A stretch of 43,571 nucleotides of DNA from a virus: positions 1 to 43,571 of the IMG/VR virus record IMGVR_UViG_3300050821_004311; one strand, given 5' to 3'. This document shows positions 16,201 to 43,262 of the stretch, in pieces. How positions within the stretch are numbered: position 1 is the stretch's first letter; each line of letters starts with the position of its first letter. The position numbers and the translations under genes are program-made. The notes under the pieces were generated by a model. The model made no database searches, was not told the origin of the DNA, and saw only the letters and a program-made list of their open reading frames with translations.

Positions 16201-16908
16201 ATGCCGACAACGCGAAACATCATGTCGAGTCTTCTGTTTTCCCTGCCCTTCATCGGCAACCAGCCGGGAGATATTTCTGCGGGCCAGCCCGCGCTCGATG
16301 CGGCGAACCTGCTGAAGCAGACCATCATGGGCCCGCCGTTCACATGGCCGTGGAACCGGGCGACGCTGGGGCCCACACCTGTAAGCGGCGGCGATCAGGA
16401 CTACACCATTCCCGTCACCACCTTCGGATTCTTGGAACAAGCGTGGCTCATCGACGCCAAGGGCAAGGCGAAGGAGATACCTGTCGTTCCCACCCTCTCC
16501 GTCGAGAGCGCGATACAACGCCCGCAGAGTTGCGCCGTCGAGCTTCAGGACGATCTCAGCATCTCAATCCGGCTCAACACCCTTCCTGACCAGCCGTACA
16601 CGCTCGATGGGTTCTATCAGAAGGCCCCGGTGCTGATGACCTCGCTCGCGTCCAGCTGGGCCCCCATCCCCGACAACCTCGCCTATATCACCGACTGGGG
16701 ATTCCTCGCGATGATGTCGATGATTACCAAGGATATTCGCCAGCAGATTTTCATGCAGAAATTCGCCGCGCATCTGCTGGGCGCGCAGGACGGACTCACC
16801 GCAACCCAGCGCAACATCTTCATCGGCGAGTGGCTGTCACTGCTGAGTCAGACTGACCGCACGCGGGCAACCACGCAGCAAGGCATCGGCGCGAGGAGTC
16901 AGAGCTAA
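16201..16908 (+). CDS. Virion protein, probable tail accessory factor
   Basis: Encodes 235 residues starting MPTTRNIMSSLLFS. Features PFTWPWNRATLGP, a beta-rich centre ending SISIRLNTLPDQPYTLDGFYQK and a C-terminus FIGEWLSLLSQTDRTRATTQQGIGAR. In podoviruses such a gene lies between the adaptor and the large tail hub. It begins right after the previous stop and shares TAATG with the next gene. Function from context. Confidence 0.6.
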   Translation: MPTTRNIMSSLLFSLPFIGNQPGDISAGQPALDAANLLKQTIMGPPFTWPWNRATLGPTPVSGGDQDYTIPVTTFGFLEQAWLIDAKGKAKEIPVVPTLSVESAIQRPQSCAVELQDDLSISIRLNTLPDQPYTLDGFYQKAPVLMTSLASSWAPIPDNLAYITDWGFLAMMSMITKDIRQQIFMQKFAAHLLGAQDGLTATQRNIFIGEWLSLLSQTDRTRATTQQGIGARSQS

Positions 16909-19900
16909 TGCCGTCGAATCTCCAAATCGCCGGAGCCGCGCTGCCCGCCAGCGACTTCGCCCCGCTGCATGTCAACCGACAGGCGACGGGCTTGTGGCCC
17001 AACACGAACCCGCTGCGCGATGCGTCAACCAGCGAATTCATGGAGAGCTACTACGGGGGCAAGAAAGACAGCTACGCCGGGGGCGTGAACTGCGAAGTCA
17101 GCACGCGCCTCACCCTGATACGAAGGCCGGGGCTGTCCATCTACAACGGGCAAATCTTCCCGCCCATCAATCGCTTCTACGGGTGGAATACCTTCACCAC
17201 CACCGATGAAGCGGTGCGGGTGATGGTGGATACCGCAGCGACCGTCTTCGACGGCACCGGGCCCTTCACCAAGAATGCGATCTTCACCAAGTCGCCGGGG
17301 GCCGGGAGCACCTACTTTCTCGGCGTGGGCAACACGCTCTACTTCACCAATGGCGTAGACAACATGCAGTTGGATAATGCAACCGGGAACGTTACAAAAT
17401 GGGGAGTCGATGCCCCGCCCGACGCGCCGACCGTGACGCAGCAGCCGCGCCCTAACCCCTATCCGTCATGGGCCCCCGGTACTGGCTACCCGGTTTACAA
17501 CGCCGCGCGGCCCGGGATGCTCATCCTCGATGACCCCGTAGCTGCACTGCCTAACTTCTCCATCATCCCGCTCTTCGGCGGGGGGAATCTCGCCATCGGC
17601 TGCGGCCAGAGCAGCATCAACGGGGCGACCGTGCAGCTACCCGCAGGATTCGACACGACGCGGCTGCTGATGTGGACAAGCCCCGGCGACGGTATCAGCC
17701 CGAGTGTAGTTACCAGCGGCGTCTACCAGTCCACCGGGGGCAACGGCGTAACCAACAGCGCGTTCCAGAGCTTTTCAGGTGGCTTCGCATTCAACGCTTC
17801 GACCAACTGGATAGCCGTTGCGTGGACGGCGGGCGCGCCCGTTTCTGTTACCACAGTGGGCAACTACACCACCCTGCTATACAGAACGGCGCTGGGTGAC
17901 GACATGGCGATGGTCTTCGGCACCGGGTTCGACCAGAGCCTTGTGCCGATTCCCGCCGGGTTCGGAACGGCGAATGTGCAGTGGATGGCGGGGATGGTGG
18001 GCGGCACAACGAACTTGGGCCACACCATGCAGGGGGTACAGAACTGCAATCTCATAATCACCCCCACCCAGCTAATCGTCGCCGCCGTCTACAACGACAA
18101 CGACGGGAATTCATGGCAGGGCACAGCCGGAGTATTCGCAGTTTTTTATAACCAATCCGCGAACCTCGTTGTAGGGCCGGGAAACAACTGCACCGTGCTC
18201 GCCATCGGAGTCTTCCCGAATCAATATCAGAGCCTATTATTCGCGACCAACATCGCGCAGGGAACCAGCTTCGGCATCTCGGGGCGACCCGTCACGGGTT
18301 CGACCGGGGCGATGTGCGGGTGGACGCCATCGGGCACAAATGAGAGTCAGGGATGGAGCGCGTTAACGCCCAACAACACCTTCGACGGCTACTACCAAGA
18401 CGGCCAAGGGAATCGCTGGGCGGGCTTCGGTAACTGCTTCGGCCTGTCTGCGATCAATGTGCCGTACACGGGCAACGTGGAGGTATTCAACGGCAACGGA
18501 GTGACGGGCGGCACGGAGCCCTCGCCGTGGAACCCAGCCGTGGGCGGCACCACGCAAGACAATACCGTTCTATGGACAAATCTAGGCCCCTACCCGTGGC
18601 AGTCGAGCACTGGCTTTGCCGTTGGCGCTGTCGTGATGGCGATACCCGTGTCGCCCCCGGGAAGTTCCCCCCAGTTCTTCGTGTGCAGCACGGCGGGGCA
18701 GAGCGGAACGACGACACCCAACTGGGTTGCAGGTGCGGGGTTGCAGGTGGCGGATGGAACCGTGGTGTGGACGAATCAGGGCAAGGCCCTGACGTGGGCC
18801 GATCTCGGGCCCAACACGCCCATCACATCCGCCGCAGCCATCGTGGACTTCAACGGCTACATGCAATACGCGGTGCAGCCGGGGAAGAGTGGGAGCACCG
18901 CGCCGATCTTCGCGACCGAACCCGGCGCGCTGACCACAGACGGCGGGGTGATCTGGCAGAATGGCGGGCCCTATGCCGTGGCTGGCACGGCCCCCGTGCA
19001 GTACGGCGACGCCTTCGCGACCACCAACGCGGACGGGGATTTTATCGACATCTCGAACATGAGCCCGAAGTCGGTGCAGATCACCGTTATTCAGGGCAAT
19101 CAGGTGATGGTGCGGGGATATGGAACCGGGGCATCCGGGGTGACTACCATCATCCTCTACCGCACCGCACAGGGGGGCTCTACGTTCCTGTTTCTGGCGT
19201 CCTTCCCCAACCCCGGGGCGGGGGTGCAGTGGACGTACATCGACACCACGCCGGATGCCGATCTCAACACCGAGATACAGGCCCAAGTGAACGGGGAAGG
19301 GACGCCGCTACCCGTGGGCGCAACCTGTCTCGCGTACCATCTCGGGCGCATCTTTGCAGCCGTAAACAACGTGGTTTATGTGTCGTCAGGCCCCGACGCA
19401 ATCGCCAGCGGGAGCAGCGGGAATGCGGGCTTCGACACCACCTTCACAGCCCAGTCAAAGATCGTCAAATTTTGGGTAAATTCGCTGGGTGTGATGGTGC
19501 TTACGCTGCGGGATGCGTACCTCATTGGAGGCTCCGCAACCCCCAATGACCCGCTCTATATGAAGACGTGGATTGAGCAGATTCCGCTCCTCCATTACGA
19601 CGCCTTTGCGCCCTTTTTATCGTCCGCTTATATGTTCGGCGGGCACCGCATGGTGGAGTCTTTAGACCCGGGCTCCGGCATCACCGAAGCGTCCTTCCCG
19701 ATAGCCAATATTGCGAACGGAATCGACCCCAAGAATGCGTACCTGACCATGCACACCGGGGGGTCGGGAGAGACGGCGCTATACCTGTCCGATGGACAGA
19801 CTTTATGGTACAGAATGGCCCCCACTTCGGCCCCCGAAACGGGTGCAAATTGGAGCCCTGCGGCGGTGATTACGGGGGGCTTGAGCGCCCTTCAATCGAC

Positions 19901-20357
19901 TGAAGTTCTCCCCGGAACAATGGCACTTTTGGTAGGCCCCCCGGCTGCTGGGGGGCCCATCCTGTACCGCGACACCACGACCTATCAGGACAATGGAACG
20001 AGCTACCCAATGGGGGTAGATTTCAACCCCATTGTGCTCGCGAATCCGGGTCAATTAGCGGGGCTGGCGTGGATGACTTTGAAGTGTTCCGCGACCGGAA
20101 AAGCCCCCGCTTTGGGGGTCGTGTTAGACGAGGTAGACGCCGCTTATGAAGACGTTCCCCGTACCCGGCAAGACCCCCCCAATCTTCCTCCCAGTACATC
20201 ATTCATCAGCAACCGCTACAGCCTATTGCAGAGCCAAAAACCAGTGTGGTGTCAGGTAATAAAGTTCGGCCTTACGTGGGACGAAACGAACACCCCCGAC
20301 GAACTCCTGACGTACACAATATTCGGGCAAATGTGGCAGGAGCAGAGGAGTCAATAA
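16908..20357 (+). CDS. Large tail hub / nozzle-type structural protein
   Basis: Encodes 1149 residues, the largest product. The N-terminus (LRDASTSEFMESYYGGKKDSY, then TRLTLIRRPGLSIYNG) fits from memory the start of tail hub proteins of P22-gp10-like or tubular type in many uncultivated podoviruses. The middle (about residues 530-680) has three related short modules with a G-x-x-x-P...DG-x-V-x-W-x-N-x-G pattern, probably glycan-binding-like beta modules. The C-terminal third is beta-rich. Likely forms the short tail and contacts the host envelope. Confidence 0.7.
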   Translation: MPSNLQIAGAALPASDFAPLHVNRQATGLWPNTNPLRDASTSEFMESYYGGKKDSYAGGVNCEVSTRLTLIRRPGLSIYNGQIFPPINRFYGWNTFTTTDEAVRVMVDTAATVFDGTGPFTKNAIFTKSPGAGSTYFLGVGNTLYFTNGVDNMQLDNATGNVTKWGVDAPPDAPTVTQQPRPNPYPSWAPGTGYPVYNAARPGMLILDDPVAALPNFSIIPLFGGGNLAIGCGQSSINGATVQLPAGFDTTRLLMWTSPGDGISPSVVTSGVYQSTGGNGVTNSAFQSFSGGFAFNASTNWIAVAWTAGAPVSVTTVGNYTTLLYRTALGDDMAMVFGTGFDQSLVPIPAGFGTANVQWMAGMVGGTTNLGHTMQGVQNCNLIITPTQLIVAAVYNDNDGNSWQGTAGVFAVFYNQSANLVVGPGNNCTVLAIGVFPNQYQSLLFATNIAQGTSFGISGRPVTGSTGAMCGWTPSGTNESQGWSALTPNNTFDGYYQDGQGNRWAGFGNCFGLSAINVPYTGNVEVFNGNGVTGGTEPSPWNPAVGGTTQDNTVLWTNLGPYPWQSSTGFAVGAVVMAIPVSPPGSSPQFFVCSTAGQSGTTTPNWVAGAGLQVADGTVVWTNQGKALTWADLGPNTPITSAAAIVDFNGYMQYAVQPGKSGSTAPIFATEPGALTTDGGVIWQNGGPYAVAGTAPVQYGDAFATTNADGDFIDISNMSPKSVQITVIQGNQVMVRGYGTGASGVTTIILYRTAQGGSTFLFLASFPNPGAGVQWTYIDTTPDADLNTEIQAQVNGEGTPLPVGATCLAYHLGRIFAAVNNVVYVSSGPDAIASGSSGNAGFDTTFTAQSKIVKFWVNSLGVMVLTLRDAYLIGGSATPNDPLYMKTWIEQIPLLHYDAFAPFLSSAYMFGGHRMVESLDPGSGITEASFPIANIANGIDPKNAYLTMHTGGSGETALYLSDGQTLWYRMAPTSAPETGANWSPAAVITGGLSALQSTEVLPGTMALLVGPPAAGGPILYRDTTTYQDNGTSYPMGVDFNPIVLANPGQLAGLAWMTLKCSATGKAPALGVVLDEVDAAYEDVPRTRQDPPNLPPSTSFISNRYSLLQSQKPVWCQVIKFGLTWDETNTPDELLTYTIFGQMWQEQRSQ

Positions 20358-39962: not shown

Positions 39963-40274
39963 TTAGAATCCTTTTGGGCTGGGTTTGTAGCGGTTAAGAG
40001 CGTTCACAATGCGAACGGCCGTATTCGGGTTGCGGGCGACACAGACAGACTCGCCGTGCTGCAAAACATCGGAGCCAACGTTGACGTAAAGCCGGACAGG
40101 TTTAGTGTCGGGCGGTGGAAAGAGCTTCGCCGCGCGCATAGCCGCTTCGATGGTTGGGCCGGAGCCGAGCAGATCGGTGCGCCGGAAGACGTGGAAGGTG
40201 TCGCCGAACTTGACGATGGCGGGCAGGTGAATGCGAGCCTCAATCATTATGTTTAGCGCGTGTTGGTACTCCAT
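39963..40274 (-). CDS. Small alpha-beta protein, function unknown
   Basis: Encodes 103 residues from ATG at 40274, behind GGAGGTAACTGC. EYQHALNIMIEARIHLPAIVKFGDTFHVFRRTDLLGSGPTIEAAMRAAKLFPPP, then VNVGSDVLQHGESVCVARNPNTAVRIVNALNRY. Two similar alpha-beta halves appear, each ending in a helix with A-A/R-I-x-N. Its ribosome site resembles that of the gene at 27150. Unknown role. Confidence 0.75.
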   Translation of the reverse strand: MEYQHALNIMIEARIHLPAIVKFGDTFHVFRRTDLLGSGPTIEAAMRAAKLFPPPDTKPVRLYVNVGSDVLQHGESVCVARNPNTAVRIVNALNRYKPSPKGF

Positions 40275-40668: not shown

Positions 40669-40697
40669 GGGTGAAATCTCCTGTGGTGCTGGGTTGT

Positions 40698-40719
40698 GGG
40701 GAGCGCTCGCGCGCCCCCC
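40698..40719 (-). repeat. Intercistronic hairpin repeat, copy A
   Basis: Read on the minus strand GGGGGGCGC, loop GCGA, GCGCTCCCC: nine pairs (one G-T) with a GNRA tetraloop. Followed by ACAACCCAGCACCACAGGAG and the ATG at 40668. Preceded by the stop of 40732. No T-tract, so not a normal terminator. Confidence 0.85.
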
Positions 40720-40731
40720 GGGGTTGGGAGT

Positions 40732-40992
40732 TTAGCCGCAGTAGTGAAGCGCGACGTAGAACGAAGTGGAGCCCGCGAGCGTCTGACCGTCGCTGCCGTT
40801 GTAGTAGCCGCGAATCTGGCTCCATTGGCACCAATCTGCAAACAGAATTGCGCTCGCATAGGTGGGGAAGGTGGCGATCATCCAGACTGGATTAGCCCAA
40901 GTGACCGAGCCGCCCAACTCCTGCGCCTTCTCGACGCGCCCGCCATGCGAGCGCCCATCTGGTACGACAGGAACACCGAGAGTCTTAGCCAT
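40732..40992 (-). CDS. Small protein, function unknown
   Basis: Encodes 86 residues starting MAKTLGVPVVPDGRSHGG. Contains SVTWANPVWMIATFPTYASAILFADWCQWSQIRGYY, rich in aromatic residues. It overlaps the preceding gene by eight bases and ends 12 bases before hairpin A. No family recognised. Confidence 0.7.
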   Translation of the reverse strand: MAKTLGVPVVPDGRSHGGRVEKAQELGGSVTWANPVWMIATFPTYASAILFADWCQWSQIRGYYNGSDGQTLAGSTSFYVALHYCG

Positions 40993-41380
40993 AGACGATC
41001 TCTCCCATCAGGCAGCATTGCAGGAACACGTCGCCCGTCTCGGCGTCGTCGTTCTCGGCGGTGAAATCTCCGAAGTGCTTGGGGTACTTGTCAGCCATGA
41101 TCTGCAACCCGAGGGCGATAGACTCGCGATTCAGGACGGGGCGAATGAAGACGTTCTCGGGGTCTTCAATGTCGCCGATGGTGAGCCCGCCGCCCTCATT
41201 GAGCGGGTAGTCGAGATGGCGGAAGATGACATCGGGGCTGCTGCGAAATTCGAGCTTCGCGGGCGCGTGGTATTCCTTGATGGTGTACCAGTAGTTCGAG
41301 CCGCCCTCGAATGCAGAGCAGAGAAGGTCAGAGATGCGCTGGGCGGTGATGGTGGTGGTGACGGTAACGGTGAAATCCAT
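40985..41380 (-). CDS. Conserved phage protein, function unknown
   Basis: Encodes 131 residues. VTTTITAQRISDLLCSAFEGGSNYWY, HLDYPLNEGG, and MADKYPKHFGDFTAENDDAETGDVFLQCCLMGEIVYG are the marks of a very common phage family I recognise from memory (ISDLLCxAFEGGSNYWY...DAxTGDVFLQ). Its function has not been settled. Preceded by hairpin B. Confidence 0.85.
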   Translation of the reverse strand: MDFTVTVTTTITAQRISDLLCSAFEGGSNYWYTIKEYHAPAKLEFRSSPDVIFRHLDYPLNEGGGLTIGDIEDPENVFIRPVLNRESIALGLQIMADKYPKHFGDFTAENDDAETGDVFLQCCLMGEIVYG

Positions 41381-41412
41381 GAAGGTACTCTCCTGTGTGT
41401 GGTGCGGGTTGT

Positions 41413-41434
41413 GGGGAGCGCTCGCGCGCCCCCC
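41413..41434 (-). repeat. Intercistronic hairpin repeat, copy B
   Basis: Identical to copy A over the 22-base hairpin, with the GCGA loop. Followed on the minus strand by ACAACCCGCACCACACACAGGAG and ATG at 41380; preceded by the stop at 41448. Confidence 0.85.
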
Positions 41435-41447
41435 GGGTTTGCGGTTA

Positions 41448-41627
41448 TTAGTCGATGCTCCAAGTGCCGACCTTGTTGCCGTTGGCGTCGTAGATGCGGC
41501 CAGCGTTGTCTTCTACGGGTTCATGTTGGCGCGCAAAGTCTGAGAATATGCGACGGGTTGCGGTGGCGAGATCGGCGTATGTCTGCATTGCATCGTTACC
41601 TAGTTCGATTGTCATCGTGAAAGTCAT
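41448..41627 (-). CDS. 59-residue protein, function unknown
   Basis: ATG at 41627 behind GAGGAG opens MTFTMTIELGNDAMQ; ends with EDNAGRIYDANGNKVGTWSID, a beta-like tail with a D-x-N-G-N turn. Lies 14 bases after the stop of 41642 and 14 bases before hairpin B. Short, but with clean signals and context. Confidence 0.7.
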   Translation of the reverse strand: MTFTMTIELGNDAMQTYADLATATRRIFSDFARQHEPVEDNAGRIYDANGNKVGTWSID

Positions 41628-41641
41628 GGGGCTCCTCGGGG

Positions 41642-42046
41642 TTAGTTGATTAGGTGAAGTTCGGTTATCTGTTGATCGGTGAAAAATCTGCGTACCTTCA
41701 TCCAGTCGCGACGCACGGCGCGATACGTTTTGGAGGCGCTGATACTGTCGTTGCTGTACCCGTATTCGTCGCAGAAATCCCCGAACGTGCCGGGGTCGGA
41801 CTTCGTTATGCAGGTGAGCAAATCGTATGCCTCGGGTTCCGTACCTTCATTCGTCATGTTGATTGACGCGCCGAAGCGGGTTGAGTAGCTGCGGCGACGA
41901 TCTGTGGTAGACGTGAGGGTGAGGGTGTAGATGCTGCGGGGTTCCTTGTCATCGGGGAAATATTCATCAAAGCCTACATAGGCTGCTGAAAAGGTCAGGT
42001 GGTGACGCTTTAGAAACGTCTCAGCTTGTTCTGTGTACTCGCTCAT
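41642..42046 (-). CDS. Conserved phage protein, function unknown
   Basis: Encodes 134 residues starting MSEYTEQAETFLKRH. The C-terminal part AYDLLTCITKSDPGTFGDFCDEYGYSNDSISASKTYRAVRRDWMKVRRFF matches a common phage family by memory (AYDVLxCLxKxDPGTFxDFCxxFGYDxDSxxAxxxYxAVxxEWxxxxxLF). Role unknown. It often accompanies the family of 40985-41380, as here. Preceded by hairpin C. Confidence 0.85.
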   Translation of the reverse strand: MSEYTEQAETFLKRHHLTFSAAYVGFDEYFPDDKEPRSIYTLTLTSTTDRRRSYSTRFGASINMTNEGTEPEAYDLLTCITKSDPGTFGDFCDEYGYSNDSISASKTYRAVRRDWMKVRRFFTDQQITELHLIN

Positions 42047-42069
42047 AACTCTCCTGTGGTGCGGGTTGT

Positions 42070-42091
42070 GGGAAGCGCTCGCGCGCCCCCC
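42070..42091 (-). repeat. Intercistronic hairpin repeat, copy C
   Basis: As copy A with one base changed (GGGAAGCGC on the plus strand), which turns a G-C into a G-T pair and so keeps the stem. GCGA loop conserved. Followed by ACAACCCGCACCACAGGAG and ATG at 42046. Confidence 0.85.
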
Positions 42092-42100
42092 GGGTTGTAG

Positions 42101-42883
42101 TTACGCGGCGACGGATGGCCGCATGGATTCAATCTTGGCGCGTATCCCTGCGAGTGAAGCTGGCGACGCTGTAGAGGAGGCTTTACGGGCGCTCGCGATG
42201 GCATCCTGAGCGGTGGTGCCGCTACCTGCTGCCATGCCGCTGATGCGCTCAGTTACGCGCCAAGTGTCGCCCGGTTCGCCCTGCGCGTTGATAGCGCGAT
42301 GGGCGACGAATTCATACTCTGCGAGCGCTGCCAGCTTGACGGGCGCGCCCATCGTTTTTACGCGCGTCTGACCTTCGCCCAGTGTGACGAAGACGGACAC
42401 CATATCCGCGCCCGCGTCGCCAAGTTTGGCGAGTTTGAGGGCCCGTTGTTCGTCGCGACTGAGCACGCCGAGCAAAATTTTCTTCTCATGCTTGGCGCGC
42501 TCGCGAGCAGTCCACACGCCCAATTCCTTGACGGCTGTGCGGCGATCTATCAGGGCGAACTTTGCGCGCGTCTTGACGTTGCCAGCGCGCCCAGCGACTA
42601 GCAGGTATCGCGAGCCCGGTACAGTGACCTCCGTGCGCTCGCGCGGGCCTTCAACGTCTCTACGACGCTGGGTAGCTTCACACCACCGCGAGTGCATCAT
42701 CACCGTTTCAAAATGGGTTGTGCTGGGCTCCTGAACAACTTCAGCGCTAGTTATGGTGACGCCCTTAGACCATGTGGCAAGACGCTTGCGATTGACGCAC
42801 GCGGGCGCATGACCTTCTACGGGTATAGCTACGATTGGGGCTTTGCCTTTGGACGCGGCGACGATTGACTGTGTGCAGTTCAT
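42101..42883 (-). CDS. Largest protein of the right-hand operon, function unknown
   Basis: Encodes 260 residues from ATG at 42883, behind ACGGAGA; the open frame runs further upstream across repeat copy D and the 26-residue gene but that part is Ser/Pro-rich and unlikely. It is basic with a central ARERAKHEKKILLGVLSRDEQRALKLAKLGDAGAD and a C-terminus of helical Ala/Ser. No recognised family or catalytic motif. Its stop codon lies within a TGTAGTTACG word (42096-42105). Confidence 0.75.
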   Translation of the reverse strand: MNCTQSIVAASKGKAPIVAIPVEGHAPACVNRKRLATWSKGVTITSAEVVQEPSTTHFETVMMHSRWCEATQRRRDVEGPRERTEVTVPGSRYLLVAGRAGNVKTRAKFALIDRRTAVKELGVWTARERAKHEKKILLGVLSRDEQRALKLAKLGDAGADMVSVFVTLGEGQTRVKTMGAPVKLAALAEYEFVAHRAINAQGEPGDTWRVTERISGMAAGSGTTAQDAIASARKASSTASPASLAGIRAKIESMRPSVAA

Positions 42884-42910
42884 TTGATGATCTCCGTGTT
42901 GCTGGGTTGT

Positions 42911-42930
42911 GGCGACGCTCGCGCGCCCCC
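42911..42930 (-). repeat. Intercistronic hairpin repeat, copy D
   Basis: More diverged: GGGGGCGC, loop GCGA, GCGTCGCC with one internal mismatch and one G-T pair. The flanks GTGGCGAC and CACAACCCAGCAACACGGAG are kept, followed by ATG at 42883. The stop of the upstream 26-residue gene is 12 bases away, again in a TGTAGTTACG word. Confidence 0.8.
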
Positions 42931-42942
42931 GGGGTTGTGTAG

Positions 42943-43023
42943 TTACGCTGTTTTGTATGCGCGCAGGGTTATGCAGATTCCGGGGTTGCATACGACAGTT
43001 TGACCAATGATGGGGGATGGCAT
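42943..43023 (-). CDS. 26-residue peptide, probable small gene
   Basis: ATG at 43023 overlaps the previous stop by one base (TAATG), with GGAGA eight bases upstream. MPSPIIGQTVVCNPG, then ICITLRAYKTA. The coupling and the hairpin directly behind its stop argue for translation despite the size. No function. Confidence 0.55.
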   Translation of the reverse strand: MPSPIIGQTVVCNPGICITLRAYKTA

Positions 43024-43214
43024 TAGGCGATCTCCTCAGAAAGTACGTCGATGACACGCTTGGCCTGTTCGACACTCTTGGCGACGAAGGGGAAGGATAC
43101 GAATTCGATGCGGGTAACAACAATGATTCCGTTGCCGTTGCGCTCGATTGAATACCCTTTGTACTCTTCGAGTAGTTCTAGGTTGGGGGTGTTGGCGGTG
43201 CGAATGGTACGCAT
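43023..43214 (-). CDS. First gene of the right-hand operon, small protein
   Basis: Encodes 63 residues from ATG at 43214 behind CAGGAGA. NLELLEEYKGYSIERNGNGIIVVTRIEFVSFPFVAKSVEQAKRVID is a small beta sheet followed by a helix, as in many short phage proteins with a YKGYxIxRxxxG start. Upstream open frame to 43466 is not used. Hairpin E lies in its leader. Being first after the operator-flanked promoter it is the earliest product of the operon. Confidence 0.75.
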   Translation of the reverse strand: MRTIRTANTPNLELLEEYKGYSIERNGNGIIVVTRIEFVSFPFVAKSVEQAKRVIDVLSEEIA

Positions 43215-43236
43215 ACTAGGTGTTCTCCTGTCGGGT

Positions 43237-43262
43237 TGTGGCGCTCGCCCTGCGAGCCCCTG
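43237..43262 (-). repeat. Leader hairpin, diverged copy E of the operon repeat
   Basis: On the minus strand GGGGCTCGC, loop AGG, GCGAGCGCC with one mismatch, followed by ACAACCCGACAGGAGA and the ATG at 43214. Only the downstream half (ACAACCCG-ACAGGAGA) is well conserved; the stem sequence differs but the stem itself is kept. Confidence 0.7.

Follow-up and report, generated by a model that had tools for sequence, protein, structure and literature searches.

Leader hairpins in the right-hand operon

The window analyzed here spans the whole of a virus record of 43,571 bases. Its plus strand carries genes for a terminase, an SU10-type portal, an adaptor with weak similarity to SU10 and a head protein, along with one for a probable structural protein (16908-20357, plus strand; 843-1149 aa among relatives) whose central region is W-rich and variable. 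Among isolated phages, the closest relative is Tunturiibacter phage Tunturi_3 (37% portal identity), which makes an acidobacterial host possible. On the minus strand of this tailed-phage contig, positions 939-2108 encode a RepA_C-like replication protein, which was also seen in relatives G001, G004, G006, G007 and G008; phage-plasmid style replication is possible.

The right end of the window is occupied by a leftward (minus-strand) operon of small genes with no assigned function. A TATACT sequence at 43285-43280 (minus strand) may be the -10 box of the operon promoter, and no good -35 was found upstream of it. Before the operon lie ATACCACA repeats (43343-43283), two in direct orientation and a final inverted one that overlaps the TATACT box; they are possibly a repressor operator.

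As the first-pass annotation had reported, five genes of this operon are each preceded by a hairpin located just after a stop codon or in the leader. All five hairpins are on the minus strand. Hairpin E (43260-43240; GGGGCTCGC-AGG-GCGAGCGCC) lies 19 nt downstream of the TATACT box and belongs to the leader of the operon's first gene, which encodes 63 aa (43214-43023). The other four begin right behind the upstream stop codon: D (42930-42911; GGGGGCGC-GCGA-GCGTCGCC) before a 260-aa gene (42883-42101), C (42091-42070) before a 134-aa gene (42046-41642), B (41434-41413) before a 131-aa gene (41380-40985) and A (40719-40698; GGGGGGCGC-GCGA-GCGCTCCCC) before a 129-aa gene (40668-40279). Two minus-strand genes have no hairpin: a 59-aa gene (41448..41627) separated from the previous gene by 14 nt, and a 103-aa gene (39963..40274) whose family lacks one in 18/18 genomes.

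Hairpins A and B are identical in sequence, and A-C share the nine-pair stem and GCGA loop described earlier, with one pair being G-U even in A and B. The exchange previously noted in C (CUCCCC to CUUCCC) turns a G-C into a second G-U pair, D folds with one internal mismatch, and E keeps a stem (six inner and two outer pairs) in a sequence unlike A-D. RNAfold formed the hairpin in 5/5 copies, and a 29-nt motif was matched by the three best copies against a chance expectation of 0. Folding-energy z-scores were -2.35 (A), -2.43 (B), -0.31 (C), 0.08 (D) and -1.32 (E); for C and D these values are not significant by themselves, and the real evidence comes from recurrence and covariation. The window hairpins matched no described family in Rfam.

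The proposed succession of ACAACCC and AGGAG was borne out in part: ACAACCC comes after 5/5 hairpins (40697-40691 behind A, followed by AGGAG), while the Shine-Dalgarno sequence (SD) behind D is CGGAG. The window contains 11 copies of CACAACCC compared to 1.6 expected, five of them directly 3' of hairpins. Because AACCC is also found 5' of the stem in A-D, the repeated unit amounts to almost the entire stop-to-SD leader. Pairing of a 3'-arm CUCC with the SD was dropped as a candidate, since CUCC is missing in D, E and several relatives.

GC-rich hairpins behind stop codons could be intrinsic terminators or attenuators between genes, but we give this reading next to no chance. As claimed before, a T-tract follows 0/5 copies, leaving no U-tract in the RNA and ACAACCC after every copy; 0/5 hairpins are among the region's listed terminator-like sites; and hairpin E, right before the SD in the first leader, would stop the operon. 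The sequence 3' of the hairpins thus excludes an intrinsic terminator, and the relatives strongly support the original assignment to 5' elements.

Cassettes in related phages

A portal search identified G002, a syntenic 41-kb relative with 74% portal identity, and portal alignment yielded about 80 loci; the early arms of 27 relatives were read. The first-pass annotation had staked its reading on further copies in relatives, and about 20 related phage contigs were found to carry hairpins of other sequences in the same slot, each genome having one proper to it. The slot runs from a stop codon or promoter through the hairpin and usually an AACC-like single strand to the SD and ATG, and we refer to its occupant as a cassette.

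Eight genes in the corresponding arm of G002 have a differently sequenced leader hairpin followed by an AYAACC motif. (The very first bases of the G002 contig itself, L009 1-52, form a long inverted repeat, CAAGGAAAAAATGTTATGC...GCATAACATTTTTTCCTTG.) Other cassettes include GGAGC-GAC-GCTCC in seven copies (G009), GGGC-GAAA-GCCC (G016), GGGT-GCAA-ACCC (G006), GGGC-TCCG-GCCC (G010), GGGAGCGC-TTCG-GCGCTCCC (G022), GGGGGGCCG-CGCTG-CGGCTCCCC (G007) and GTGGC-NNNN-GCCAC (G014, G017, G018, G026 and G027). About eleven hairpins were found in G024, several of them mutually unlike (TGGGGTTG..CAGCCCCA, GGTTGA..TCAACC, GAGTGA..TCACTC and GGAAGC..GCTTCC) and many immediately 3' of one repeated promoter (TTGACA...TACAAT/TACTAT). 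Where cassettes are near promoters, as in some relatives, the hairpin would lie within about 20 nt of the message start, in some cases only a few nt from it.

Across cassettes, stems span 4-13 bp and the loops of 3-9 nt share no bases, with GNRA or UNCG tetraloops in about 12 distinct cassettes (an automated count gave 13, including one TTCG in G024 for which a 5-nt loop is the better reading). The AACC-like motif 3' of the stem is common but not universal, being weak or absent in G017, G018, G022 and G023.

An exact scan of viral contigs for the window's own stem gave no matches, as relatives' stems differ, and an IMG/VR search with the window's 260-aa protein also returned none. Such cassettes are absent from Tunturi_3, and scans for the CTCCCCATAACC and GTGGCGGATGCCAC cassettes found mostly chance matches outside the group. 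A cassette-pattern scan did recover L138, a 58-kb contig with GGGGAG...CTCCCC leader hairpins at two adjacent minus-strand genes, one of them followed by ATAACCC; this kind of cassette may extend beyond the present phage group.

Conservation of pairing

As energy z-scores are weak for GC-rich stems, we relied on covariation and slot-anchored tests. When the four lowest pairs in each of 16 distinct stems were scored, 98.4% of positions were paired compared to 65.2% after shuffling, with 17 double changes versus 3.3 and a covariation score of 0.883 versus 0.169, a value reached in 0/500 shuffles; slid controls collapsed. Counting was done on reduced stem-only rows, as MAFFT had given shifted alignments for full and for flanked stems.

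These 16 stems had been preselected for forming hairpins and trimmed manually, and a second test was therefore anchored on the slot: 110 early genes preceded by gaps of 40 nt or more were picked blind to structure and compared with dinucleotide shuffles. Gene calls came from a simple script, so counts here and in the comparisons below are approximate. Best stem scores averaged 14.2 versus 8.6 in shuffles (top of 40 rounds, 9.4), and 62/110 leaders passed a stem score of 13.5 compared to 14.5 in shuffles. By contrast, 37 tightly packed early genes had no stem excess (7.3 versus 8.4 shuffled). A rough cassette pattern was found 60 times in 142 kb of early arm versus 12 times in 960 kb of late arm, a density per base about 34-fold higher in the early arm.

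Orthologous genes tend to share the presence or absence of a cassette, which was present in 12/16 members of an AAA-type family (about 205-218 aa) and in 8/8 and 8/8 members of two gene groups with products of roughly 288-298 aa. Cassettes of differing sequence precede both the window's 260-aa gene and its orthologue in G022 (45% identity). Together, covariation, the slot-anchored excess and consistency among orthologues strongly support the earlier suggestion of selection on RNA structure, and conservation of the stem-loop for pairing, not sequence, is well supported by these comparisons.

Palindromes close to promoters might also act as DNA, either as operators or as N4-type hairpin promoters for a virion RNA polymerase, and distant N4-like portal matches (for example, Pollock and TR2) would fit the latter. 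We consider a DNA element very unlikely. At the position of the G-C to G-U change in window hairpin C, two G022 copies have G-U and two have A-U, so that G-U pairs are retained or swapped for A-U or G-C. Cassettes have a fixed, sense-strand orientation and a fixed site before the SD, the hairpin ending mostly 20-28 nt upstream of the ATG, and sigma70-like promoters lie upstream of several. These exchanges, orientation and spacing, the tetraloops and the differing hairpins within G024, G002 and G007 argue against a sequence-specific DNA operator. The N4 vRNAP requires a hairpin shape and a few bases (PMC4496689); the cassettes lack the 5-7 bp stem and 3-nt loop with conserved bases of its promoters, the largest ORF encodes a head/tail-type protein, and Pfam RNA_pol had no match in 15 genomes in a search whose control was silent as well. 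Cassettes are probably not N4-type promoters.

The repeated leaders could instead be kept as homology boundaries for swapping gene modules by recombination, in line with the near-identity of copies within genomes and the strongly differing gene content of the arm among relatives. We regard this as improbable as the main explanation because it accounts neither for pairing kept despite sequence change nor for GNRA/UNCG loops and the differing hairpins of single genomes, although a role as gene-exchange boundary is possible as a side effect.

Ribozymes and a second element in the same slot

Rfam Twister-P5 (RF02684) was predicted in six genomes: G002 (L009 2289-2354), G004, G006, G008, G016 and G021, the remaining matches being L091 2153-2213, L092 1819-1889, L094 1884-1955, L098 10171-10108 and L103 2087-2151. 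Matches scored 37.9-54.8 bits against a gathering threshold of 37.6, with the core conserved. Each is located at, or a few bases from, the stop codon of a roughly 290-aa gene, which by eye we take to be ArdC-like, and upstream of the next SD. Four of the six (G006, G008, G016 and G021) have the usual cassette and SD behind the ribozyme, whereas G002 and G004 have Twister-P5 alone. Rfam found no ribozyme in the window. Of the RNA cutting proposed in the first-pass annotation, processing of the RNase III type is unlikely, many stems having only 4-5 pairs, which is too short for this enzyme, while the predicted twisters keep the idea of a cut alive for six relatives.

A second element, CGCG-N-GGUCGG-CGCG-UUAU-CCGGCC and variants, is found immediately 5' of the SD in several relatives (L091 3029 and 3329, L092 2961, L103 4134 and L108 2939; on reversed contigs, L098 3331, L102 2645, 2905 and 3939, and L107 2475), and its sequence fits a compact H-type pseudoknot. 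A descriptor of this fold matched 10 times in early arms and not once in reversed sequence or on the opposite strand. Among seven distinct sequences, reduced to stems by hand, 98.6% of cells were paired, with 11 double changes versus 3.2 in shuffles and compensatory changes in both stems (for example, CGCG/CGCG to CGCC/GGCG in G025). No Rfam family matched it at the gathering score.

Proposed function

We propose, with about even confidence, that cassettes are modular structured 5' leaders that stabilize mRNA and insulate the translation of each cistron. At the observed spacing, an initiating ribosome would sit just 3' of the hairpin, and the SD stays single-stranded. Each cistron could gain a stable 5' end of its own and a free site for ribosome landing. 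At promoters, the hairpin would lie near the RNA 5' end; inside operons, it would shield the SD from sequence farther upstream and, after a cut in the operon RNA, become a 5' hairpin that protects the downstream part. Where a twister occupies the slot, the ribozyme itself might make the cut. If the cassette were copied or recombined along with genes, one phage would hold near-identical copies and another phage different ones. Hairpins at the 5' end are known to hinder RppH conversion and can stabilize mRNA (PMC3997798), and RiboJ, a ribozyme plus hairpin ahead of the RBS, increases expression (PMC6206723).

The leader reading is favored by differing hairpins in the slots of one genome, several of them right behind a sigma70-like promoter. 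Against it, no promoter is visible upstream of window copies A-D, whose hairpins would come to an RNA end only after a cut, in a window with no detected ribozyme; the distance of 10-20 nt between some cassettes and the -10 box may be too large for a strictly 5'-terminal effect; and the near-identity within genomes exceeds what stability alone requires. That last feature is what a co-evolving binder would produce: a phage RNA-binding protein or translational regulator might read its own genome's hairpin and control the operon genes jointly, as copies are often identical in loop as well as stem (seven copies in G009; the GTGGC-GGAT-GCCAC group). We hold such a binder to be unlikely, however, given several unrelated hairpins in the same slot of G002, G007 and G024, the dissimilarity of window hairpin E to A-C and the lack of a candidate protein.

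Carrying the stabilizing-leader proposal further, the slot could be a natural insulator: the stop-SD interval of most spaced early genes would hold one of several structured RNAs (a hairpin, a compact H-type pseudoknot, or a twister, alone or with a hairpin) that turn the operon RNA into units of independent stability and independent translation, with interchangeable, fast-evolving parts resembling a RiboJ toolkit. We offer this broader picture tentatively.

Comparison with known systems

The intercistronic CUUCGG hairpins of T4 and the leader hairpin of T7 gene 10 are stable structures between or before phage genes and are similar in kind to the cassettes; neither is known as a per-genome repeated leader cassette. 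A search of the open-licence literature found no report of the present cassettes, and the nearest description is that of the SAS/ESAS elements of cluster K mycobacteriophages (PMC3203893). Both are repeats at translation starts of non-structural genes, and both comprise inverted repeats 5' of the SD with a lineage-specific consensus and presence conserved per gene family. RNA pairing of the 17-bp ESAS inverted repeats had little support in the authors' own analysis (PMC3203893), whereas cassette pairing covaries strongly, and the 13-bp SAS GGGATAGGAGCCC had only two matches with two mismatches in the window, at chance level and none in the operon. The cassettes are not SAS/ESAS. Intergenic repeats of halovirus HF2 (PMC8707807) likewise lie between genes with positions conserved across a virus genus, but they contain AT-rich motifs and have promoter activity, in contrast to GC-rich RNA hairpins.

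The stabilizing leaders of ompA, papA and aprE (PMC3997798 and references there) share a 5'-leader stem-loop upstream of an open SD, but these are single leaders of single genes, whereas cassettes are repeated before many genes and also inside operons. Structured RNA before most spaced operon genes, with structure kept as sequence changes, amounts to a comparative experiment on leader hairpins, mRNA life and translation. The gene associations of bacterial and phage twister ribozymes have been called biologically unexplained (PMC10085705), and twisters in the same slot give these ribozymes a concrete context. The order ribozyme-hairpin-RBS of RiboJ (PMC6206723) is that found in G006, G008, G016 and G021; RiboJ is a hammerhead-type synthetic part, whereas the natural ribozymes belong to Twister-P5. 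Most cassettes have no ribozyme, among them all five of the window. Cassette parts could themselves be used as insulator modules.
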